Assembly (NCBI GenBank): GCA_036273515.1 | Contig: DASUHM010000018.1 | Location: 1-64,000 of the forward strand | Direction: 5' to 3' | Origin: Gaiellales bacterium | Lineage (GTDB): Bacteria; Actinomycetota; Thermoleophilia; Gaiellales; JAICJC01 | Length of the DNA: 64,000 nucleotides | Shown: positions 25,493 through 37,104 of the stretch, in pieces | Numbering within the stretch: the stretch's first letter is position 1 | Layout: each line of letters begins with the position of its first letter | Position numbers and translations under genes: made by a program | Notes under the pieces: generated by a model | What the model was told of the DNA's origin: nothing | The model's database searches: none | Seen by the model: only the letters and a program-made list of their open reading frames with translations

Positions 25493-26343
25493 CCCTTGCC
25501 CCCCAGCCGCAGCCGCTCGGCGATCGGGCCTTCGGCGACGCGGGGCATCGTCTCGCCGGTCTCGAGCAGGGTCTTCAGGTCGGAGAGGATCCGCGGCCAG
25601 CCGAGCGAGACCATCGAGGCGGCCGTGCTGCCCTCGTCGAACCCGTCGTGGACCACCGTGAGCTTGCAGACGTCGCCGAGCTGCTCGATGTCGAAGGTCA
25701 CCTTCGAGCGTGACTCCGCCGCCAGCCGCGCCGCCGCCTCCTCGCTCAGGTCGAGCGACGCCATCAGCTCCGGCGTGAACGTGTGCCAGCTGTAGGAGAG
25801 GCGGCGGGGCGGGTCGGATTCCAGGACGACCTGCTCGGGGCTCTCGAACCGCAGGCCGAGCATGTCCCACGTCATCGGCGAGCCCTTGCGCCAGTCCGTG
25901 GCGAACGTCGCCCCCCAGTAGCGGCCCGTGAAGGCGGGGTCGGTGAGCGCCTGCCAGAGGCGCTCGGGCGTGGTGCTGACGTAGGTGGTGTAGACGAACG
26001 TCGGCTTGTCCATTGGGGTCGTCTCCTCGAGTGCGCGTTTCAGGTCGGACAGCGCGTGGACGCGACCGCGGTCGTACTGCGTGATCCAGCGCTGCCCGAT
26101 CTCGTGGATGGGCGCCGCGTTCAGGTAGTGCAGCTTCTCCCGGCCGCGGCGGAGAGTCGTGACGAGGTCCGCGGCCTCGAGCACGGCGAGGTGCTTGCTG
26201 ACGGACTGCCGGGCCATGTCCAGCTCCGCGCAGAGCTCACGGAGCGTCTGGCCGTTGCGGACGTTCAGGCTGTCCAGGAGCCTCCGGCGACCGGGGTCGG
26301 CAAGCGCCCGGAAGGCGTCGTCCATGTCGGGATATGCAGCCAT
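25489..26343 (-). CDS. ArsR regulator fused to SRPBCC (AHSA1) domain
   Basis: 284 aa. Residues 1-100 are an ArsR winged helix (FRALADPGRRRLLDSL, ELDMARQSVSKHLAVLEAADLV). Residues 112-270 are an AHSA1/SRPBCC lipid-binding-like domain beginning VYTTYVSTTPERLWQAL. The usual arrangement is two separate adjacent genes; here they are one protein, so ligand binding could gate DNA binding directly. First gene of the operon with the DUF2182 remnant and DUF899. ATG start after a TAATAT -10 box. Confidence 0.88.
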   Translation of the reverse strand: MAAYPDMDDAFRALADPGRRRLLDSLNVRNGQTLRELCAELDMARQSVSKHLAVLEAADLVTTLRRGREKLHYLNAAPIHEIGQRWITQYDRGRVHALSDLKRALEETTPMDKPTFVYTTYVSTTPERLWQALTDPAFTGRYWGATFATDWRKGSPMTWDMLGLRFESPEQVVLESDPPRRLSYSWHTFTPELMASLDLSEEAAARLAAESRSKVTFDIEQLGDVCKLTVVHDGFDEGSTAASMVSLGWPRILSDLKTLLETGETMPRVAEGPIAERLRLGGKG

Positions 26344-26345
26344 CC

Positions 26346-26376
26346 GGCTGCATATATTAGGCAGCCATATGGCTGC
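26346..26376 (-). promoter_or_regulatory. Promoter and candidate ArsR operator
   Basis: Perfect 16-bp palindrome GCAGCCATATGGCTGC (26361-26376) next to a further GGCTGCATAT half-site (26346-26355). On the minus strand a TAATAT -10 box (26354-26359) sits between them, 10 bases before the ATG. A repressor bound here would block the promoter, consistent with autoregulation. Confidence 0.65.
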
Positions 26377-26380
26377 ATGT

Positions 26381-26453
26381 CAAGCGGGGTCAGACCCCGA
26401 ACGTTTCCGTCACGGAAGTGTCACGCGTACCGTTCGGGGTCTGACCCCGCTTG
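26381..26453. repeat. Compound inverted repeat with two GGGGTCWGACCCC cores
   Basis: Perfect 23-bp inverted repeat: left arm 26381-26403, right arm 26431-26453. Each arm is built on a 13-bp core (GGGGTCAGACCCC at 26386, GGGGTCTGACCCC at 26436). The 27-bp loop holds a small hairpin TTCCG-tca-CGGAA. The right arm is inside the 3' end of the methyltransferase gene. Confidence 0.9.
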
Positions 26454-27182
26454 GGCGACCAGGGCGAGCTTGCGGACACGGCCGGAGGCGAGCCAGGAGC
26501 TCCAGAGGCGGTGGGAGGTGAGCAGGTCGTCCAGGCCCTGGCGGCCGACCTGGGCCGCGATCGCCGCGCCGCCGGCCGCGTAGGCGGCGGTCAGCGCCTC
26601 GGCGGTCGCGCGGTGGGAGGCGCTCAGGTCGGCCCGCCAGGTGACGCGCAGGCCGGCGGCCTCGAGCAGGCGCACCATCTCGTCGACCGGGGTCGGCCAG
26701 ACCGTGTCGGCGTTCGGCATCGCCGCGCGCTCCTTCGCCGTCAGCGGCCCGCCCTCCTCGAGCGTGAAGGCGAACCGGCCGCCGGGAACCAGCGCCGCCG
26801 CAACTGCCGCGAGCAAGGCCGCCTTGTCCCGGAAGGCGAGCATCGTCTCGAGCAGGAGCACGACGTCGAAGCGGCCCGCGGGCAGCGGCGGCACCTGCGC
26901 CACCTCGAACCGGCACGGAAGGCCACAGGCGCGGGCCGACGCGATCTCGATCGCGCGCGCGCTCGCATCGACGCCGAGGTAGTCGCAGCCCAGCTCGCGG
27001 GTGATGAACCGGCCCGGCCCGGCCACCCCGCAGCACACGTCGAGGACCGAGACGCCCGGTCCGATCCCGGCCCGATCCGCCAGCTCGCGAATCTCGGTCG
27101 CACGCATGAAGCTCTGCTGCCCGACGTACTCGCCCGGAGCGAAGGCCGCCGATCCGATTTCCCGCGCAATCAGTAGTTCCAC
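26421..27182 (-). CDS. SAM-dependent methyltransferase (class I)
   Basis: 253 aa. Motif I is VLDVCCGVAGPGRF (about 46-59), followed by an acidic GVDAS and a motif near VVLLLETMLAF. Resembles UbiE/glycine N-methyltransferase-type enzymes; substrate unknown. The last residues (AQAGSDPERYA) are encoded by the right arm of the inverted repeat, so the original C-terminus was replaced. GTG start with TACTCT (27193-27198) 10 bases upstream; only 5 bp separate it from the divergent gene. Confidence 0.82.
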   Translation of the reverse strand: MELLIAREIGSAAFAPGEYVGQQSFMRATEIRELADRAGIGPGVSVLDVCCGVAGPGRFITRELGCDYLGVDASARAIEIASARACGLPCRFEVAQVPPLPAGRFDVVLLLETMLAFRDKAALLAAVAAALVPGGRFAFTLEEGGPLTAKERAAMPNADTVWPTPVDEMVRLLEAAGLRVTWRADLSASHRATAEALTAAYAAGGAAIAAQVGRQGLDDLLTSHRLWSSWLASGRVRKLALVAQAGSDPERYA

Positions 27183-27187
27183 CTTGA

Positions 27188-29548
27188 ATGAGAGAGTACG
27201 GGGGGACGCTGCGGGCGGTTCCGACCGGCCCGGTGAGCGGCCTGGTAGGCCAGGTGCTCCTGCTCACGGCTCTCACGGCAACGGTCGGGCTCGGCCCGGC
27301 CGGCTGGGTGGCCGGGCTGGCATCGGCCGCCCTGGTCGACGTGACGCTCGCCCACGGGCTGATCCGCGACCCGACCGAACGGCTCGGCCCGGCCGGGTGG
27401 GTCACGCTTGCCCGGGCCACGCTCGCGCTCGGCGTCGCCGCGCTCGCGGCCGACTCCTTCGTCCGCCCGGTGCCCGTCGCCCTGCTCGTCGGGCTCGCCG
27501 TCGTCGCGCTGGCCCTCGACTACGTCGACGGCGAGGTGGCCCGCCGCACCGGCACCGTGTCCGAGCTCGGCGCCCGCCTCGACGGCGAGGTCGACGCGTT
27601 CCTGATCCTGGCGCTGAGCGTGTACGTCGCCCCCATCGCCGGCGCCTGGGTGCTCACGATCGGCGCCGCGCGCTACGCCTTCCTCGCGGCCGGCTGGGCG
27701 CTCCCCTGGATGCGGGCGCGGCTGCCGCTGCGCGACTGGCGCAAGACCGTCGCCGCGACCCAGGGCATCGTGCTCGCCGTCGCGGCGGCAGACGTCCTGC
27801 CGCTCGTGCTCGTCCAGGCCGCACTGGCAGTCGCGCTGGCGATGCTGGCCGAGTCGTTCGGCCGGGACGTATTCTGGCTCTGGCGGCGCAGGCGCAGCGG
27901 CGCGACGGCCCCGGCACCCGGGTCGCAGCCCGCCCCTCGCCGCCGGGGCCGCCGGGCGATCGGCATCGCGTTCACGGTCGCGGCCGTCGTGGTCGTCTGG
28001 GGCGCGCTCGTCGCTCCCAACCGGCCCAACGACATCGGCTTCGATGCGTTCGCCCGCGTGCCGCTCGAGGGCCTGATCGTCATCGCGCTCGCGCTCGTCC
28101 TGCCCCGCAACGCCCGCCGCGTGCTGGCCTGGATCGTCGGCCCGCTGCTGGGCGCGCTGGTCGTCCTGAAGCTGCTCGATGTCGGCTTCTTCACCGCCTT
28201 CGACCGGCCGTTCAACCCGGTGGAGGACTGGCGCTACACGTCGATCGGGATCGAGACGCTCCGCGCGTCGATCGGCCGCACCCGCGCCGACCTGGTCGTC
28301 GCCGGCGTCGTGGTCGTCGTGATCGCTGCGCTCGTCCTGCCCACGCTGGCGGTGCTACGCGTCACCCGGGTCGCATCCGGCCATCGCAGCATCTCCACGC
28401 GGGCGATCGCCGCCCTCGGCGTCGTCTGGGCGCTGTGCTGGCTGGTGGGGGCGCAGCTGGCCGGCGAGCCGATCGCCTCGACCAGCGCCGCCGAGCTGGC
28501 GGTCCACGAGGTGCGCGCGGTCGAGGCGGGCCTCCAGGACGGCGCCCGCTACGCCGCCGCGATCCACCATGACCGCTACGCCCACACGCCCGCTAGCCGG
28601 CTGCTGACCCGCCTCAGCGGCAAGGACGTGCTCGTCGTCTTCGACGAGAGCTACGGCAAGGTCGCCGTCCAGGGCTCGTCGTTCTCGCCCCAGGTGGACG
28701 CCACCCTGGCCGCCGGCACCCGCCAGCTGCGCGCCGCCGGGTTCTCGTCCGCCAGCGGCTGGCTCACCTCGCCGACCTTCGGCGGCACCAGCTGGCTGGC
28801 CCACTCCACGCTCCAGTCCGGGTCGTGGGTCGACAACCAGGGCCGCTACGACGAGCTGATGGCGAGCAACCGCTTCACGCTCGGCGACGCGTTCAAGCGG
28901 GCCGGCTGGCGGATCGTCGACGACATCCCGTCGGACGACCGTCCCTGGAGCGACGGGAAGTCGTTCTACCACTTCGACAAGATCTACAACCGCCTGAACG
29001 TCGGCTATCACGGGCCGACCTACGCGTACGCCTCGATGCCCGACCAGTACACGTATCTGGCGCTCCAGCGGCTCGAGCTGGCGAAGCGCCATCGCAAGCC
29101 CCTGTTCGCCGAGATCGACACCGTGTCGAGCCACGAGCCGTGGACGCGCATCCCGCCGCTGATCAGCTGGAGCGAGGTCGGCGACGGCTCCATCTACAAG
29201 ACGCTCCCCGTCGACACGACCGGATCGAACGATGCCGGCGAGGGCTACGGGCACTCGATCGTGTACTCGCTTCAGGCGCTCTTCTCGTACATCGAGAACT
29301 ACGGCCGCAAGAACCTCGTCGTCGTCGTGCTGGGCGACCACCAGCCCGCCCACGTCGTCTCCGGCTACGGCGTCGACCACGACGTGCCCATCTCGATCAT
29401 CGCCCACGACCCGTCGGTGTTCCGGCAGATCGCGCCCTGGGGCTGGGCGAGCGGCATGCGCCCGAGCTCGCACGGGCCGGTCTGGCGCATGAGCGCCTTC
29501 CGCAACCGCTTCCTCGGGGCATTCGGCTCCCGCCCCACGACCCCGTAG
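27188..29548 (+). CDS. CDP-alcohol phosphotransferase / sulfatase-fold fusion
   Basis: 786 aa. N-terminal part is a CDP-alcohol phosphatidyltransferase: D111-x2-D114-G115-x2-A118-R119-x8-G128-x3-D132-x3-D136 fits the catalytic signature exactly. Several membrane helices lie at about 10-470. The C-terminal part (from about 475) is an alkaline-phosphatase/sulfatase-fold domain, as in LTA-synthase-like enzymes, with VLVVFDESYGK and VVVLGDHQPA. Probably makes and then modifies a phospholipid head group or polymer at the membrane. First gene of the long operon, 7 bp before the acyltransferase. Confidence 0.85.
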   Translation: MREYGGTLRAVPTGPVSGLVGQVLLLTALTATVGLGPAGWVAGLASAALVDVTLAHGLIRDPTERLGPAGWVTLARATLALGVAALAADSFVRPVPVALLVGLAVVALALDYVDGEVARRTGTVSELGARLDGEVDAFLILALSVYVAPIAGAWVLTIGAARYAFLAAGWALPWMRARLPLRDWRKTVAATQGIVLAVAAADVLPLVLVQAALAVALAMLAESFGRDVFWLWRRRRSGATAPAPGSQPAPRRRGRRAIGIAFTVAAVVVVWGALVAPNRPNDIGFDAFARVPLEGLIVIALALVLPRNARRVLAWIVGPLLGALVVLKLLDVGFFTAFDRPFNPVEDWRYTSIGIETLRASIGRTRADLVVAGVVVVVIAALVLPTLAVLRVTRVASGHRSISTRAIAALGVVWALCWLVGAQLAGEPIASTSAAELAVHEVRAVEAGLQDGARYAAAIHHDRYAHTPASRLLTRLSGKDVLVVFDESYGKVAVQGSSFSPQVDATLAAGTRQLRAAGFSSASGWLTSPTFGGTSWLAHSTLQSGSWVDNQGRYDELMASNRFTLGDAFKRAGWRIVDDIPSDDRPWSDGKSFYHFDKIYNRLNVGYHGPTYAYASMPDQYTYLALQRLELAKRHRKPLFAEIDTVSSHEPWTRIPPLISWSEVGDGSIYKTLPVDTTGSNDAGEGYGHSIVYSLQALFSYIENYGRKNLVVVVLGDHQPAHVVSGYGVDHDVPISIIAHDPSVFRQIAPWGWASGMRPSSHGPVWRMSAFRNRFLGAFGSRPTTP

Positions 29549-29555
29549 CCTTCCG

Positions 29556-30725
29556 ATGACGATGCGCCCGGCAGGTCAGGCAGGAAGACGGATCGCAGGT
29601 CTGGACGGCGTGCGCGGCCTGGCCGCGCTCTACGTCGTCGTCAACCACATCTTCCTGCGCGCGTTCCCCGGCTACCCGGCCGACACGGCGCCGTTCTGGG
29701 CCGCCTGGTTCATCTACGGGCGCTTCGCGGTCGTCGTCTTCATCGTCCTCTCCGGCCTGTCGCTGACGCTGGCGCCGGCCCGCAACGGCTGGCGCCTCGA
29801 CGCGCTGTCGCGGTTCGCGCGGCGGCGGGCCTGGCGGATCCTGCCGCCGTACTGGGCCGCGCTCGTCTTCAGCCTCCTCGTGGCCTGGCTGATCGTCCCG
29901 CCGCCCGGCGAGGGCGCCCCCGACGTCTGGTCGGTGCTCGTGAACGGCCTCCTCGTCCAGAACATCGTCGCCGCGCCCACCCCCAACCGCGCGTTCTGGT
30001 CGATTGCCGTCGAGGCGCAGCTCTACCTGCTCTTCCCGCTGCTGCTCCTGCTCGTGCGCCGCCGCGGCGCGATCGCGATGGTCGCCGCCGTCACGGCCGT
30101 CGTCGCCGCGATCGGCATCGTCGGCCCGCACGTCGCCGGGATCGACACGTTCGTGATCCAGTCGGCGCCCGACCTGGCGGCGCTCTTCGCCGTCGGCGTC
30201 CTGGCCGGCGGGATCGTGATCGCGAGCGAGCGGCGGCGGTCGTGGCCGTGGGCCTGGATCGCGCTCGCCGCCGCGACGCCGGTGCTGGCGACGATCGCGT
30301 GGCGGGGCTCGGTGTGGACGCTCGACCGGCTCTACTGGGTCGATCTCGCCCTCGGGCCGGCCATCGCCTGCCTGCTGGCGGCGCTCGTCACCGGCCGGCC
30401 GGCGCCGCTCCTGCGCGCGCTCGACTCGCGACCGATCCGAAGCCTCGGCCTCTCGTCGTACAGCCTCTACCTGGTTCACGGGCCGATCGTGGTCGTCGTG
30501 TACGAGAAGGTCGTGGCCGGCCGCGTCGGCCACGGCGCGCCGTCGTTCCTGCTCGCGGTGGCGCTGATCGTGCCGCTCGCGATCCTCTTCGCGCGCGGCT
30601 TCGCGGCCGTGTTCGAGATCCCGTTTCAGCGCCATCGCGGCTGGCCCGGCTGGCGCCTCCCGGCGCCCCCCCGGGGCGAATCCACCCGCGTCGGACGCGC
30701 GTACTCGCGGAGAGCTGCATCGTGA
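29556..30725 (+). CDS. Acyltransferase 3 family membrane enzyme (OafA-like)
   Basis: 389 aa with about 10 membrane helices. The N-terminal [21 protein letters not shown] carries the conserved catalytic His, and [20 protein letters not shown] is the second family signature. Adds acyl groups to cell-surface glycans, lipids or small molecules. Its TGA overlaps the GTG of the dehydrogenase gene, linking it to the downstream cluster. Confidence 0.9.
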
Positions 30726-31747
30726 TCGAAGCGCGCGAACCGATGGCACAGGAACACGAGATGGCACACGCGTTCTGGCTGCGGAGCCCCGGCTGCGGGG
30801 AGATCCGGCCGGCCCCGCTGCCGCGGCCCGGCGACGACGACGTCCTCGTGCGCACCGTCCGCTCGGGCGTCAGCCGGGGCACCGAGCTGCGCGTGTTCCG
30901 CGGCGGCGTGCCGCCCGAGCAGTACGCGACGATGCGGGCGCCATTCCAGGAGGGGGAGTTCCCGGCTCCGGTCAAGTACGGCTACCTGAGCGTCGGCGCC
31001 GTCGAGGAAGGCCCGCGCAGCCTGCGCGGCCGCACCGTCTTCTGCCTCTACCCGCACCAGACCGCCTACGTCGTCCCGGCCGCCTCCGTGTCCGTCGTTC
31101 CCGAGGACGTGCCGCCCGAGCGCGCCGTCCTCGCCGGCACCGTCGAGACGGCCGTGAACGCGCTCTGGGACGCCGCGCCGATGGTCGGCGACCGCGTCGC
31201 CGTCGTCGGCGCCGGGATGCTCGGGTGCTGCGTCGCCCGCCTGCTGGGCCGGATCCCCGGCGTGGAGGTCACGCTCGTCGACGTCGATGCCGCCCGCGGC
31301 GCCGTCGCCGGCGCGCTCGGTGCGGGATTCGCGCTGCCCGCCGACGCCGCCGGCAGCCGCGAGCTCGTCTTCCACACGAGCGCGACGGCCGCGGGCCTGC
31401 AGCGCTCGCTCGAGCTGCTCGCGCCCGAGGGCACCGTGATCGACCTCAGCTGGTACGGCGAGAAGGAGGTCACCCTGTCGCTCGGCGGCGCCTTCCATAC
31501 CGACCGGCTCCGCATCCGCTCGAGCCAGGTCGGCGCCGTCTCCCCCGCCCGGCGCGCGCGGCGCACGACGGCCGCCCGGCTGGCGCTCGCGCTCGACCTG
31601 CTGCGCGACCCCGCGTTCGACGCCCTCATCACGGGCGCCTCGCCGTTCGCCGAGCTGCCCGACGTCATGGCCCGGCTGGCGGCGGGGAACCTGCCGGCGC
31701 TGTGCCACACCATCACCTACGACGGAGCCGCGCCGTGTACAGCGTGA
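30722..31747 (+). CDS. Zinc-type alcohol dehydrogenase family protein
   Basis: 341 aa from the coupled GTG; ATG at 30761 (328 aa) is possible and has AGGAAC upstream. MDR fold: GroES-like N-terminus with the [14 protein letters not shown] signature, Rossmann motif [18 protein letters not shown], and a C-terminal catalytic return. The usual zinc-ligand Cys after VSRGTE is absent, as in several biosynthetic members of this subfamily. Likely an NAD(P)-dependent redox step on the cluster's product. Confidence 0.8.
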
Positions 31748-32133
31748 CCGTCCGCGACCACATGATGATCGCGCACAGCCTCCGCGGCGAGGTGTTCGGG
31801 CCGGCCCAGGGTCTCCACGGCGCGACCTACGTGATCGACGCCACCTTCCGCCGGGCGGCCCTCGACGAGAACGGGATCGTCGTCGACATCGGCCGGGCGG
31901 CCGCGGAGCTCCATGCCGTCGTCGAGGGGCTGACCTACCGGAACCTCGACGCCGAGCCCGGCCTCGCGGGCGAGAACACGACGACGGAGGTGCTCGCGCG
32001 GGTGATCGCCGACCGGCTCGCCGAACGGGTGCACGACGGCGCGCTGGGCGCGGGCGCCGGCGGTCTCGACAGCCTCGTCATCACCTTGCACGAGTCGCAT
32101 GTCGCCTGGGCGAGCTACGAGCGGCCGCTATGA
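31735..32133 (+). CDS. PTPS/QueD-fold protein lacking the catalytic triad
   Basis: 132 aa, normal length for 6-pyruvoyl-tetrahydropterin synthase / 6-carboxy-tetrahydropterin synthase. Zinc-site His H14 (MIAHSL) and H28 are kept, but HGH is HGA, the catalytic Cys before it is absent, and the usual DH dyad before the LN motif is LT (GLTYRNLD). The substrate-holding NTTTE and LHESH motifs remain. It may bind a pterin-like compound but cannot use the standard chemistry. GTG at 31735 overlaps the preceding gene by 13 bases; a GTG at 31744 is the alternative. Confidence 0.85.
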
Positions 32134-33188
32134 GGGACGTGCACGTCATCGTTCCCGGCGGCTACGACGACCCGGCCCGGCCGAGCGGCGGCAACACCTA
32201 CGACCGGCGGGTGTGCGAGGGCCTCGCGGCGCAGGGCTGGCCGGTCGTGGTGCATGCCGTGCCCGGGTCGTGGCCGCATCCCAACGCAGCGGCACACGCC
32301 CTCCTGGCGGACGTCGTGGGCCGGATCCCCGACGATGCCCTCGTGCTGCTCGACGGCCTGGTCGCGTCGACCGCGCCCGAGGTGCTCGTGCCCCAGGCGC
32401 AGCGCCTGCGCCTGGTCGCGCTCGTCCACATGCCGCTCGGCCGGCGCCAGGCGGAGGCCGTCGCGCGCGAGCGGGAGGGCGCCGTGCTCTCGAGCGCGAG
32501 GGCCGTCGTGACGACGAGCGAGTGGGCGCGGCGCACGCTGCTCGCGTTGTACGGCCTGGCGGCGGAGCGGGTGCGGGTCGCCGAGCCGGGTGTCGATGCC
32601 GCCGACCTGGCGCCGGGCACGGCCACTGCGGGCGCGCTCCTGTGCGTCGCCGCCGTGACGCCCGGGAAGGGCCACGACGTGCTGCTCGACGCGCTCTCGA
32701 CGATGCCGGAGCTGCGCTGGCATTGCCGCTGCGTCGGCAGCCTCGACCGCGACCCCGCATACGCCCGGCGGCTGCGGCTGCGCAGCGCCGATCTCGGGCT
32801 CGGGCAGCGCCTGTCGTTCCCGGGGCCGGGGGCGGGCGCCGAGCTCGACCGCAGCTACGCCGCCGCCGACCTGCTGGTGCTCGCCTCGCGCGGCGAGACG
32901 TACGGCATGGTCGTCACCGAGGCGCTCGCCCGCGGCCTGCCCGTGATCGCAGCCGACGTGGGCGGCGTGCCCGAGGCCCTCGGCCACGCCGGCGACGGCT
33001 CGCGGCCGGGCGCACTCGTGCCGCCCGACGACCCGGCCGGGCTCGGCGCCGCGCTTCGCGCCTGGCTCGGCGATGCCGACCTGCGGCACAGGTGGCGCCG
33101 CGCGGCCCAGGAGCGGCGCGCGGCGCTCGAGCCGTGGTCGGCCACGACGTCGACGCTTGCGGCCGTCCTCCAGGGAGCCGCCCCGTGA
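32130..33188 (+). CDS. GT4-family glycosyltransferase
   Basis: 352 aa, GT-B fold. Donor-binding motif [21 protein letters not shown] followed by [11 protein letters not shown], with the two conserved Glu of GT4 retaining enzymes. The N-terminus has [20 protein letters not shown], typical of acceptor domains. Transfers a nucleotide-sugar residue; acceptor probably the cluster's small molecule (inference). ATG overlaps the PTPS stop (ATGA). Confidence 0.88.
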
Positions 33189-34024
33189 GCGTCGAGACGA
33201 TCCGCGTCAGCACCGAATGGCTCGACCTGCGCGAGGGCGCCGATGCCGCTGCCCGCTCCCGCGAGCTCGTCGGCGAGCTCGGACGCCACCTTCCGGCGAG
33301 CGGCGTGCAGGTGATCCACGACCTCGCCTGCGGCACGGGCGCGATGGGCAGGTGGCTCGCGCCGCTGCTCCCCGGCCGGCAGCACTGGGTGCTGCACGAC
33401 CGCGACGCCGACCTGCTCGACGTGGCCGCCGCCCGCTGCCCGGCGCCCGCGGCGGACGGGGCGCCGGTCGACGTCGAGACGCGCTGCTCCGACATCACCC
33501 GGCTCACCGCGGACGACCTGGGCGGGACCGGGCTCATCACCGCCTCTGCGCTGCTCGACCTGCTCACCCGTGACGAGCTCGACGACCTCCTCGACGTCTG
33601 CCTCGCCGCCAAGTGCCCGCTCCTGCTGACGCTCTCCGTGGCCGGCCACGTCGAGCTGGCACCGGCGGATCTGCTGGACGCCCGGGTGGCGGCCGCGTTC
33701 GACGCACACCAGCGGCGGATGACGGGCCGCGGCCGCCTGCTCGGCCCCGACGCCGTCGCCGCAGCCGTCGCAGAGCTCTCGGCGGCCGGAAGCCGGGTGC
33801 TCGTCAGGCGCAGCGCCTGGCGGCTCGGCGCCGCCGAGGCCGGGCTCGCGGCGGCGTGGCTCCGCGGCTGGATCGCGGCGGCGTGCGAGCAGGAGCCGGA
33901 GCTCGCCGACGAGATCGGTTCGTACGCGCACGGCCGCCTGGCCGCGGCACAGGTGGGGCGGCTGGCCGTGACGGTCGGCCACGCCGATCTGCTCGCCCTG
34001 CCCCGCGATCGGGAGGCGGCATGA
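33185..34024 (+). CDS. Class I SAM-dependent methyltransferase
   Basis: 279 aa. Motif I is VIHDLACGTGAMGRWLAPLL (about 42-61), then VLHDRDADLL as the acidic post-I loop. The rest is a Rossmann methyltransferase with a helical C-terminal extension. GTG overlaps the preceding stop by 4 bases. Acceptor unknown, presumably an intermediate of this operon. Confidence 0.82.
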   Translation: MSVETIRVSTEWLDLREGADAAARSRELVGELGRHLPASGVQVIHDLACGTGAMGRWLAPLLPGRQHWVLHDRDADLLDVAAARCPAPAADGAPVDVETRCSDITRLTADDLGGTGLITASALLDLLTRDELDDLLDVCLAAKCPLLLTLSVAGHVELAPADLLDARVAAAFDAHQRRMTGRGRLLGPDAVAAAVAELSAAGSRVLVRRSAWRLGAAEAGLAAAWLRGWIAAACEQEPELADEIGSYAHGRLAAAQVGRLAVTVGHADLLALPRDREAA

Positions 34025-34977
34025 GCCTGCGGGCCTGGCGCCGGGTGCGACTCTGGGGCGCCGCCGCCGTGCTTGCGGCGATCGTCTGGCGGCTCGGCAC
34101 CGGCCCGTTCCGCGACGGCATCGGCGCCGTCGACGCCCGCGTGCTCGCGGTCGGACTCGGTATCGGCCTCGTCACCACGGTCTGCTGCGCCTGGCGCTGG
34201 ACGGTCGTCGCGCGCGGCCTCGGCATCGAGCTCTCGCTGCCCGCGGCCGTGGCCGCCTACTACCGCTCGATCTTCCTCAACCTGACGCTGCCCGGCGGGG
34301 TCGTCGGCGACGTGCACCGCGGCGTCCGCCACGGCCGCGATGCCGGCGACGTCGGCCGCGGCCTGCGCGCGGTCGCCTGGGAGCGCACCGCCGGACAGGT
34401 CGTCCAGGCGCTGCTCACGCTCGCCGTCCTGCTCGCCCTGCCGTCGCCGGTGCGAACGTTCGTCGTCCCCATCGCAATTGGCGTCGCCGGAGCGACAATC
34501 GGCGTGGGGCTGCTGCTCGAGCGGGCCCGGCCGCGCCGCCGGTCGTGGTGGGCGCGGGCCCGCCGCGGCATCGCCCGCGACGTGCGCGCGGGGCTGCTCG
34601 CCCGGGGAGCGCTCCCGGTCGTCGCGCTGACGTCGGCGCTCGTCGTGATCGGCCACGCGCTCACGTTCCTCGTGGCCGCGCGGGCGGCCGGCGTCTCGGC
34701 GCCACCGGCCCGGATGCTGCCGCTGGCCCTGCTCGCCATGCTCGGGATGGTCGTCCCCGGGATCGCCGGCTGGGGCCCCCGCGAGGGCGCGACGGCGTGG
34801 GTGTTCGGCGCGGCCGGCCTGGGTGCGGGCCAGGGCGTCGCCACCGCCGTCGTCTACGGGGTGATGGTGCTCGTCGCCGCCCTTCCGGGCGCGCTCGTGC
34901 TGCTCGGCGGGCGGTTCGAGCCGCCGCTGCGCGCCCTCGTCGCCGGCGCCAAGACCGACGGAGTCGCCGATGCCTGA
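34021..34977 (+). CDS. LPG-synthase-TM/flippase-like membrane protein
   Basis: 318 aa with 7-8 membrane helices. Matches the lysylphosphatidylglycerol synthase transmembrane family (UPF0104, AglD-like): RSIFLNLTLPGGVVGDVHRG is diagnostic, and MVVPGIAGWGPREGATAW the second conserved patch. No aminoacyl-transferase domain is attached, so transport or flipping of a lipid or glycoconjugate is more likely than lysyl transfer. ATG overlaps the methyltransferase stop. Confidence 0.85.
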   Translation: MSLRAWRRVRLWGAAAVLAAIVWRLGTGPFRDGIGAVDARVLAVGLGIGLVTTVCCAWRWTVVARGLGIELSLPAAVAAYYRSIFLNLTLPGGVVGDVHRGVRHGRDAGDVGRGLRAVAWERTAGQVVQALLTLAVLLALPSPVRTFVVPIAIGVAGATIGVGLLLERARPRRRSWWARARRGIARDVRAGLLARGALPVVALTSALVVIGHALTFLVAARAAGVSAPPARMLPLALLAMLGMVVPGIAGWGPREGATAWVFGAAGLGAGQGVATAVVYGVMVLVAALPGALVLLGGRFEPPLRALVAGAKTDGVADA

Positions 34978-35659
34978 CCGCCCGTACACGCTGCTCTCGT
35001 GCAGCATGTCGATCGACGGCTATATCGCCGGCGCCGCGTCGCGGCTGCTGCTCTCGAACGGCGACGACTTCGACCGCGTCGACGCCGTGCGCGCGTCCTG
35101 CGACGCGATTCTCGTCGGCGCGGCAACGGTGCGGATCGACAACCCGCGCTTGCTCGTGCGCTCGCAGCGGCTGCGCGAGCGGCGGGCGGCCCACGGGCTG
35201 CCGCCGTCGCCGGCGAAGGTGACCGTGACCCGCCGCGCGCACCTCGACGCGCGGGCCGACTTCTTCACCGCCGGCGAGGCCGAGAAGCTCGTCTACTGCG
35301 CCAGCCCGCGCGTCGGCGACGCCCGCGCCCGGCTGGGAGAGGTCGCGACCGTCATCGACGGCGGCGACGGCGTCGAGATGCGGCGGCTGAGCGCCGACCT
35401 CTCCGCCCGCGGCGTCGAGCGGCTGATGGTCGAGGGCGGCGGCACCGTCCACACGCAGTTCCTGACCGCCGACCTCGTCGACGAGCTGCAGCTGGTCGTC
35501 GCGCCCGTCTTCGTCGGCGACTCCGACGCGCCCCGGTTCGTCCGCGACGGCACCTTCCCCTGGAACCCCGCCCGGCGGGCGCGGCTGGCCGAGGTCCAGC
35601 AGATCGGCGACGTGGTCCTGATGCGCTACGCGCTCTCCGCGCGCTTCGGCGACGGCTGA
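34970..35659 (+). CDS. RibD C-terminal-domain / DHFR-like reductase
   Basis: 229 aa. Matches the reductase half of RibD and DHFR-like NADPH enzymes: YTLLSCSMSIDGYIA, ILVGAATVRIDNPRLLVR and LMVEGGGTVHTQFLTADLVDEL. RibD reduces the ribosyl group of a pyrimidine in riboflavin synthesis. No deaminase domain and no rib genes are nearby, so a pathway-specific reductase is likely. It overlaps the preceding gene by 8 bases and ends the operon. Confidence 0.88.
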   Translation: MPDRPYTLLSCSMSIDGYIAGAASRLLLSNGDDFDRVDAVRASCDAILVGAATVRIDNPRLLVRSQRLRERRAAHGLPPSPAKVTVTRRAHLDARADFFTAGEAEKLVYCASPRVGDARARLGEVATVIDGGDGVEMRRLSADLSARGVERLMVEGGGTVHTQFLTADLVDELQLVVAPVFVGDSDAPRFVRDGTFPWNPARRARLAEVQQIGDVVLMRYALSARFGDG

Positions 35660-35675
35660 GCCCGAGACCGCCGCG

Positions 35676-35689
35676 TAGACTCGGCGGCG
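35676..35689 (+). promoter_or_regulatory. Leaderless promoter of the HAD gene
   Basis: TAGACT -10 box (35676-35681) ends 8 bases before the ATG; no ribosome site is present. Confidence 0.6.
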
Positions 35690-36484
35690 ATGGCCGATCC
35701 GCGCACGCCCCCAGGGGCGCTCGTCCTGGACATGGAGGGCGTCCTGCACGTCGACTGGGCCGCGCTCCCCGGAAGCGCCGAGGCGGTGCAGCGGTTCGCG
35801 GCCGCCGGCCTCGAGATCGCCGTCCTCACGAACACGACGGGCCGTACCCGCGCCGAGATCGCAGGGCGGCTGGCCGGGCTGGGCATGCCCGTGCCGGCGG
35901 AGCGGATCGTCACGTCGGCCTCGGCGACCGCCGAGCATCTGCGAAACGCCGCGCCCGCGCCCCGCGTGTTCGCCCTCGCCGAGCCCGGTGTGCTCGAGGA
36001 GTTCGCCGGGCTCGATCTCGTCGACCGGCCAGCCGACGCGGACACGATCGTGCTCGGCGGTCCCGACGGCCGCTGGACGTATGCGGCGCTGAACGAGGTG
36101 TTCGCCGCGCTCATGCGCGGCGCGGCGCTGGTGGCGATGCAGCGCAACCGCTGGTGGACGACGCGGGCCGGCCCGGCCCTCGACGCGGGCATGTTCGTCG
36201 CCGGCCTGGAGTACGCCGCCGGTGTCGAGGCGACCGTCATCGGCAAGCCGTCGCCGGCCATCTTCGCGACCGCGTGCGCGCTCGCGGGCGCCGATCCCGC
36301 CGAGGCGATGATGGTCGGCGACGACCTCGAGTCGGACCTCCGCCCGGCCGCCGCCCTGGGGATGGCGACGTGCCTCGTGCGGACGGGGAAGGGCGGGACG
36401 TTCACGCCCGCAGCCGGCGAGGTCGACATGCACGCCGACGATCTCGCGGCGGTGGCCGACGCGCTCGGCCTGCCCGCCGCCTGA
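35690..36484 (+). CDS. LHPP/HDHD2-like HAD-IIA phosphatase with variant motif I
   Basis: 264 aa. HAD-IIA cap arrangement: motif II in VLTNTTGRTRAEI, motif III GKPSPAIFATA and motif IV MMVGDDLESDLR. Motif I is LVLDMEGVLHVDW, so D14 is the nucleophile but the usual D+2 is Glu (E16). HDHD2 and LHPP also deviate at D+2 (Ser), and the following VLHVDWAALPGSAEAV is like theirs. Activity may be reduced or altered. Own leaderless promoter. Confidence 0.83.
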   Translation: MADPRTPPGALVLDMEGVLHVDWAALPGSAEAVQRFAAAGLEIAVLTNTTGRTRAEIAGRLAGLGMPVPAERIVTSASATAEHLRNAAPAPRVFALAEPGVLEEFAGLDLVDRPADADTIVLGGPDGRWTYAALNEVFAALMRGAALVAMQRNRWWTTRAGPALDAGMFVAGLEYAAGVEATVIGKPSPAIFATACALAGADPAEAMMVGDDLESDLRPAAALGMATCLVRTGKGGTFTPAAGEVDMHADDLAAVADALGLPAA

Positions 36485-36576
36485 CTCTCGGCGAATTACG
36501 GAGGGCGAGTCCGCGCCCGCCCCGACGCGCGCCTCCTCCGCCCGGCCGAAGATGGACGGGACCGAAGGAGGTGACG

Positions 36577-37104
36577 ATGCACGCGCTCATCGTCTACGAG
36601 TCGATGTACGGCAACACCCGCGCCGTCGCCGAGGCGATCGCGGAGGGCTTCGGCGACGGGGCGGACGTGCGCCACGTGCGGGCGGCGGGTGCCCCGGACG
36701 ACGAGGTCGACCTGCTCGTCGCCGGCGGCCCGACGCATATCCACGGGATGACCACGTCGCTCAGCCGGCACATGACCATCAAGGGTGCACAGGAGGACGG
36801 CCATGGCGAGATCGACCCGGACGCGGTCGACGCGCCCGGGCTGCGCCAGTGGCTGCGCGATCTCCCCCATCGCCCCGGCGGGATCGCGGCGGCGTTCGAC
36901 ACGCGGATCGACCGGTCCGCGACGGTGACGGGCACCGCGGCGCGTGGCGTCGCGAAGCGGCTCCGCCACCACGGCTACGAGGTCGGCTGGACCGAGAGCT
37001 TCTTCGTGGACGACGCGGAGGGGCCGCTCGCCGACGGCGAGCTGGAGCGCGCCCGCGGCTGGGGCGCGACGCTCCGCACGGCCGCCGTTCGCCACGCCGC
37101 GTGA
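36577..37104 (+). CDS. Flavodoxin-domain protein
   Basis: 175 aa. FMN phosphate loop YESMYGNTRAVAEAIAEGF at about residues 7-25, then DLLVAGGPTHIHGMT (50s loop). Cytoplasmic single-domain flavodoxin or flavoprotein of the kind found beside stress genes in actinobacteria; electron partners unknown. ATG follows GGAGG at 6 bases. A terminator follows 16 bases after the stop. Confidence 0.88.
   Translation: MHALIVYESMYGNTRAVAEAIAEGFGDGADVRHVRAAGAPDDEVDLLVAGGPTHIHGMTTSLSRHMTIKGAQEDGHGEIDPDAVDAPGLRQWLRDLPHRPGGIAAAFDTRIDRSATVTGTAARGVAKRLRHHGYEVGWTESFFVDDAEGPLADGELERARGWGATLRTAAVRHAA

Follow-up and report, generated by a model that had tools for sequence, protein, structure and literature searches.

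A conserved actinobacterial PTPS-IV locus in a Gaiellales genome and a proposed pathway from GTP to a decorated pyrimidine or pterin

We analysed a stretch of 64,000 nucleotides (hereafter the window) from the genome of a Gaiellales bacterium, which is contig 18 (DASUHM010000018.1) of a 4.07 Mb assembly in 98 contigs (GCA_036273515.1, 96.6% complete) and carries eight open reading frames (ORFs) on the + strand, at 27188–35659, around a protein of the PTPS-IV type. The conserved unit of this locus is six genes, running from a BchC-like dehydrogenase through PTPS-IV, a GT4 glycosyltransferase, a methyltransferase and an LPG-synthase-TM (LPG-TM) membrane protein to a RibD_C reductase, and not all eight. 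With about even confidence, we read the locus as the actinobacterial PTPS-IV (FGPAQ) pathway from GTP, in which a GTP-derived pyrimidine or pterin would receive a sugar and a methyl group and perhaps be attached to a membrane phospholipid. What was computed directly is the gene set and how well it is conserved, the coupling between GTP cyclohydrolase II (GCHII) and a creatininase-family gene, and the co-inheritance of the membrane parts.

A six-gene core around PTPS-IV

The order dehydrogenase-PTPS-GT4-methyltransferase-LPG-TM-RibD_C is retained, as far as the contigs reach, in five relatives (G001–G004 and G020). In G003, G004 and G020, the gene for a CDP-alcohol phosphotransferase fused to a sulfatase-fold domain is encoded on the opposite strand, while in G002, of the window's own genus, this gene and the acyltransferase gene point the same way as the dehydrogenase gene, which is also the arrangement in the window; the acyltransferase gene is present in some relatives and absent from others. 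Since the strand of the fusion gene differs among relatives while the six-gene order persists, the eight-gene run is a local arrangement. The first-pass annotation of this DNA had proposed an eight-gene operon; its genes do belong together, but the unit comprises the last six; the acyltransferase is optional, and the CDP-alcohol/sulfatase gene frequently forms a transcription unit of its own.

A search of GTDB genomes with ten PTPS sequences returned at least 570 relatives, and the best 80 of these came from Streptomyces, Micromonospora, Planosporangium, Geodermatophilus, Thermomonospora, Sciscionella, Thermoleophilia metagenome-assembled genomes (MAGs) and others; the nearest named contigs bearing the locus include Thermoleophilia and Thermoleophilaceae MAGs. 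In 94 distinct loci whose flanks were long enough, a sample skewed to Streptomyces, GT4 lies downstream of PTPS in every one and the dehydrogenase lies within 2.5 kb upstream in 92, the other two having it further upstream, behind inserted DNA. The dehydrogenase-PTPS-GT4 triad is thus found in 92/94 loci, far above chance, and the remaining partners are present in 89 (CDP-alcohol), 88 (LPG-TM), 85 (methyltransferase) and 79 (GCHII). Co-occurrence in other genomes, the test that the earlier annotation had set for its own claim, was run, and the families do co-occur. Inserts between core genes in family f91 and in other loci encode a transporter, a methyltransferase, binding proteins and a transposase; they seemed unrelated and did not point to a product.

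In the window, profile searches and sequence reading confirmed all eight ORFs with the families first assigned to them, and likewise the overlaps of 4–13 bases from the acyltransferase on. Specifically, the seven genes at 29556–35659 run head to tail with overlaps of 4 (GTGA, 30722–30725), 13 (31735–31747), 4 (32130–32133), 4 (33185–33188), 4 (34021–34024) and 8 bases (34970–34977), and the fusion gene stops 7 bases 5' of the acyltransferase gene. No terminator-like site was found in 26300–36700, which is weak evidence, as shuffled sequences average 0.8. The gene calls rest on homology, because a simple GC-frame gene caller miscalled several genes of the window.

By sequence comparison, the window PTPS (132 aa) is the orthologue of Streptomyces coelicolor SCO6650 and a PTPS-IV protein: it matches SCO6650 (3d7j) over its full length (phmmer, E = 7.5e-59), and phmmer found no other solved structure in the PDB below E 0.001. 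The third zinc histidine is replaced by Ala (HGH to HGA) in all 154 core sequences, which breaks the canonical PTPS/QueD zinc triad, and the catalytic Cys is absent, its position being Ala/Gln in the PTPS-IV core; the pterin-anchoring Glu (E120) is retained in 154/154. Distant homologues of less than 50% identity mostly keep HGH (16/18). SCO6650 itself, in a structural study of 2008, was reportedly free of zinc and did not catalyse the PTPS reaction, and the loss of the zinc ligand and Cys in the window protein agrees with this.

The window protein and 151 of the 154 core hits carry FGPAQ, the signature of PTPS-IV (PMC5445326). That paper describes a PTPS-IV neighbourhood of 561 sequences linked to PF00925 and PF01872 (GCHII and RibD_C), and its text makes no mention of GT4, methyltransferase, CDP-alcohol, sulfatase or creatininase partners. 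The window shares with this neighbourhood both FGPAQ and the adjoining RibD_C gene, but lacks GCHII, which was reported as a common neighbour and not as a defining motif.

The dehydrogenase, initially called zinc-type, is most like BchC and lacks the usual zinc-ligand motifs: at the sites where zinc dehydrogenases have Cys and GHE, it reads GVSRGTE and YGY (by eye). GT4 is closest to MshA, with weaker matches among solved structures to PimA and tetrahydrobiopterin glucosyltransferase. The AlphaFold model of the methyltransferase (pLDDT 87.7) matches class I methyltransferases generally, naming no substrate, and a PDB sequence search with this protein gave spurious matches only. The best PDB matches of RibD_C include archaeal reductases, and the archaeal enzymes that it resembles act on the diaminopyrimidine before deamination.

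Table 1. Features of the PTPS-IV locus and its flank in the window (SAM, S-adenosylmethionine)
Feature	Position	Strand	Profile match or other evidence
CDP-alcohol phosphotransferase (about residues 1–250) fused to 4–5 transmembrane segments and a sulfatase-fold LtaS/EptA-like domain (about 251–786)	27188–29548	+	PF01066 37.4 bits, above cut-off
Acyltransferase family 3 membrane protein, optional accessory	29556–30725	+	PF01757 127 bits
BchC-like MDR dehydrogenase without usual zinc-ligand motifs	30722–31747	+	bchC 39 bits, under cut-off 291
PTPS-IV protein, SCO6650 orthologue (PDB 3D7J)	31735–32133	+	PF01242 81 bits
GT4 glycosyltransferase, MshA-like	32130–33188	+	PF00534 96.5 bits; MshA 82.7 bits, under cut-off
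Class I SAM methyltransferase	33185–34024	+	PF13649
LPG-synthase-TM / flippase-like membrane protein	34021–34977	+	PF03706 110.9 bits
RibD_C reductase, nearest archaeal 2,5-diamino-6-ribosylaminopyrimidinone 5'-phosphate reductases	34970–35659	+	PF01872 134.9 bits; TIGR01508 136.6 bits, under curated cut-off 186
Second, divergent methyltransferase, neighbour of the CDP-alcohol/sulfatase module	26421–27182	-	Same neighbour in relatives

The second methyltransferase adjoins the CDP-alcohol/sulfatase module in Thermoleophilia MAGs, Geodermatophilus and others, and is possibly accessory to it. As called, it is separated from the fusion gene by a gap of 5 bases (27182–27188), which probably means that one start codon or both have been placed too far upstream. 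On the other side of the locus, a HAD phosphatase (35690–36484) and a flavodoxin (36577–37104) were rejected as pathway members, since relatives have no homologue of either beside the locus.

Several unusual loci were also observed. Four minimal ones (L055, L165, L169 and L180) have just dehydrogenase-PTPS-GT4 recognisable, with dehydrogenase and PTPS 44–56% identical to the window proteins. A distant version in family f20, with genomes of 3–5 Mb (L057:8152-12046 and L058:7645-11941), contains RibD_C, a BchC-like dehydrogenase, PTPS with FGPA and an intact HGH, GT4 and a methyltransferase, the last two being fused in L058; a FolB-like gene and a PlsC-type acyltransferase gene run divergently from this set. 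G457 holds two PTPS-IV loci (L147 and L182) differing in gene content, or its assembly blends two strains; and L068, a contig titled as a Burkholderiaceae MAG with an actinobacterial locus of about 70% PTPS identity, is probably mis-binned or misnamed.

Entry reaction and the GCHII-less variant

GCHII is the usual partner of the locus in relatives, and the GTP-derived starting chemistry first proposed for it is supported. In a tree with a set of housekeeping enzymes, the locus GCHIIs fall into two groups, sister to each other and separate from those housekeeping enzymes. The first group has Tyr at the position of E. coli Tyr105 in 36/36, a creatininase-family gene nearby in 0/36 and a RibD_C orthologue in 32/36 loci. 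The second (n = 68) has Met (55), Leu (7), His (4) or Gln (2) at this position, and a creatininase-family gene lies within 7.5 kb in 67 of the 68 loci. Loss of Tyr and presence of the creatininase-family gene are thereby coupled (Fisher p 3e-27), with one evolutionary origin; as Tyr changes only once in the tree, this p value does not stand for many independent events. L175, with Leu, is the sole non-Tyr locus where no creatininase-family gene is nearby, and the gene may sit elsewhere in that genome.

SCO6655, the FAPy-forming GCHII of S. coelicolor, was studied by Spoonamore and Bandarian in 2006; it reportedly has Met at the switch position and releases the formylated intermediate FAPy, and changing Met to Tyr is said to permit the canonical product. 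The distribution of the creatininase-family gene, beside non-Tyr GCHII in 67/68 loci and beside Tyr GCHII in 0/36, suggests that it may encode a separate FAPy deformylase. The simplest reading is that one lineage passed deformylation to a separate enzyme, and the switch residue then drifted. In Sinorhizobium and Brucella, experiments have proven that BrbF, of the creatininase family, acts as a FAPy formamidase (PMC9478397). Together with BrbF, the archaeal ArfA/ArfB/ArfC route resembles the present system in two respects, namely the FAPy-type GCHII with a creatininase-family gene in relatives and the archaeal-type RibD_C; it differs in that GCHII replaces ArfA, the window retains the reductase alone and, in our reading, the end product is not riboflavin. 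Additionally, a Streptomyces genome (G083 C1:4234433-4236440) has a third GCHII beside a divergent RibD_C, away from the PTPS locus, and this RibD_C could supply the reductase missing from creatininase-type loci.

The window locus represents a variant with RibD_C and neither GCHII nor creatininase. As the first-pass annotation noted, no cyclohydrolase is present in it; the only GCHII found in the genome (96.6% complete) is RibBA, which is encoded on another contig in a run of genes that includes ribE and rpe and has Tyr at the E. coli 105 position. The sisters G003 and G004 are likewise without a locus GCHII, and G020, of the same taxonomic order, retains one. The window's family most likely lost its own GCHII, because the locus GCHIIs are separate from the housekeeping ones in the tree, and because G003 and G004 lack the gene while G020 and most relatives have it. 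The window's genome probably draws on the product of the riboflavin RibBA for the entry step.

The S. coelicolor set SCO6650–SCO6655, which the annotation had named, is the same type of locus, with an orthologous PTPS and GCHII as its usual partner. Streptomyces loci share the order dehydrogenase-PTPS-GT4-methyltransferase-LPG-TM and have a divergent CDP-alcohol gene. Compared with the S. coelicolor locus, the window has RibD_C, lacks GCHII and creatininase, and carries the CDP-alcohol and sulfatase domains fused and co-directional with the core. Literature on SCO6650 or SCO6655, in the papers searched, was limited to mention in gene lists.

Membrane partners and the proposed pathway

The fusion protein has 786 aa, and its motif DxxDGxxAR x8 GxxxDxxxD is invariant in ten aligned relatives. 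The sulfatase-fold residues E237, T280, D467 and H468 are also invariant in relatives; this domain scores under the PF00884 cut-off in the window and above it in the homologue L042, and its model, of low confidence (pLDDT 64), resembles EptA, MCR-1 and LtaS.

We surveyed co-inheritance in 396 Actinomycetota genomes, in which many of those with PTPS-IV are Streptomyces and not independent. The PTPS-IV core reached 227 bits or more in 14 genomes and was also present in G068 and the fragmented G088; the CDP-alcohol enzyme occurred in these 14, in G068 and, as one partial match, in G302, and the methyltransferase in 13 of the 14 and no others. At the genus level, 5 of 242 genera have the CDP-alcohol enzyme and all 5 also have PTPS-IV. 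The sulfatase-fold partner was present in 18/27 chosen PTPS-IV genomes versus 0/21 chosen others, and in a draw of 203 genomes it occurred in 6, all PTPS-IV positive. The CDP-alcohol gene is unlinked, on another contig, in G440 and G068, and the sulfatase-fold partner is far from the locus in 8 of 10 Streptomyces tested. Such unlinked co-inheritance argues for a shared function better than linkage does. G302, a Streptomyces without a PTPS-IV locus or sulfatase-fold gene, looks like a loss of the whole system.

Based on these data, we propose a pathway in five steps. First, GTP would be converted to 2,5-diamino-6-ribosylamino-4(3H)-pyrimidinone 5'-phosphate, a step supported by homology and published enzymology; relatives would use a locus GCHII of the Tyr type, which would also deformylate, or a non-Tyr GCHII with the creatininase-family deformylase, and in the window's genome the compound would probably come from RibBA. 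Second, the archaeal-type RibD_C is likely to reduce this diaminopyrimidine phosphate, probably to the ribityl form. Third, the zinc-less PTPS-IV and the BchC-like dehydrogenase, placed here by elimination, would remodel the pyrimidine or pterin and its side chain, for which we see an even chance. Fourth, GT4 would attach a sugar and the methyltransferase a methyl group; that both go onto the small molecule is fairly likely, these roles being read from family membership alone. Finally, the CDP-alcohol phosphotransferase may link the product, or a phosphorylated precursor, to lipid, the LPG-TM protein may carry the molecule across the membrane, and the sulfatase-fold domain may transfer or remove a phospho-group outside; attachment to lipid is the least certain step, and we hold it only tentatively. 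Pathways of the phosphatidylinositol mannoside (PIM) and mycothiol type similarly combine a CDP-alcohol phosphotransferase with an MshA/PimA-like GT4; here there is no inositol and the proposed headgroup is GTP-derived, so the analogy is one of logic, not of descent.

Several observations weigh against this pathway. The locus has no known product or activity, a single evolutionary event accounts for the coupling of switch residue and creatininase, and the sulfatase model is of low confidence, as given above. Creatininase-type loci are without a RibD_C orthologue, and therefore the second step is not universal within the locus. The sulfatase-fold gene is missing from some PTPS-IV genomes (for example, 6/7 tested in f91), and a few distant loci consist of dehydrogenase-PTPS-GT4 alone; because of these, the pathway may be broader, with the membrane parts as one of its outputs.

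Competing readings and significance

The product could instead be a soluble glycosylated, methylated pteridine, either a cofactor or a secreted metabolite, the CDP-alcohol, sulfatase and flippase genes serving envelope functions of the same lifestyle and not acting on it. We consider this unlikely, since the CDP-alcohol enzyme is inherited with PTPS-IV even if unlinked and the membrane LPG-TM gene recurs in 88/94 loci, although the most conserved core is the soluble triad, GT4 weakly matches tetrahydrobiopterin glucosyltransferase, and in the f20 loci, which have RibD_C, the triad and a methyltransferase, no adjoining CDP-alcohol gene was seen. A flavin variant or a control of riboflavin supply, with RibD_C feeding the riboflavin branch and PTPS binding flavin precursors, would fit the riboflavin families GCHII and RibD_C and a window locus sharing the product of RibBA. 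It is improbable: the housekeeping rib genes (ribE, ribBA and another RibD_C) are located elsewhere, none of the conserved locus genes was seen to belong to a lumazine or riboflavin synthase family, and GT4, the methyltransferase and the membrane genes would be left unexplained. An F420/Fo (deazaflavin) biosynthesis locus is very improbable; its only support is an unpublished remark tying PTPS-IV to F420/Fo (PMC5041015). CofH over the curated cut-off is absent from this genome, from G000–G004 and from the PTPS-IV genomes G421, G473, G747, G752 and G780, and is present in many genomes without PTPS-IV (G005, G006, G009, G098 and G451), so that the link was rejected, the CofH profile being uncorrelated with the PTPS-IV distribution. 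That the eight genes lie in one direction only by chance, in a genome that is dense and rich in GC, can be dismissed almost entirely, for although the fusion gene and acyltransferase are positioned differently in sister genera and neighbouring genes also overlap elsewhere in the window, the recurrence of the six-gene order across Actinomycetota refutes it for the core.

The structure of the S. coelicolor PTPS (PDB), the GCHII of that organism, and the position of PTPS-IV beside GCHII and RibD_C (PMC5445326) are already known. The literature examined, which did not extend to the 2006 GCHII and 2008 structure papers, makes no mention of the larger set of genes, the link between switch residue and creatininase, the inheritance of the membrane enzymes together with PTPS-IV or the variant without GCHII.

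Returning to the PTPS-IV pathway from GTP, these results set its edges, that is, its member genes and the membrane enzymes that travel with them, for a pathway without a known product that is conserved across many actinobacterial families, including the antibiotic-producing Streptomyces and Micromonospora. They also offer a reason why one Streptomyces GCHII would halt at a formylated intermediate, as a creatininase-family deformylase usually adjoins. The locus may even, though we regard this as less likely than not, make an undescribed class of bacterial membrane glycophospholipids with a GTP-derived pyrimidine or pterin headgroup in hundreds of actinobacteria, including many Streptomyces, with the window's lineage branching off riboflavin synthesis at RibBA. 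Two older findings, a PTPS homologue of solved structure that is inactive and a GCHII whose product is altered, thereby become parts of a pathway that can be tested in a laboratory strain.

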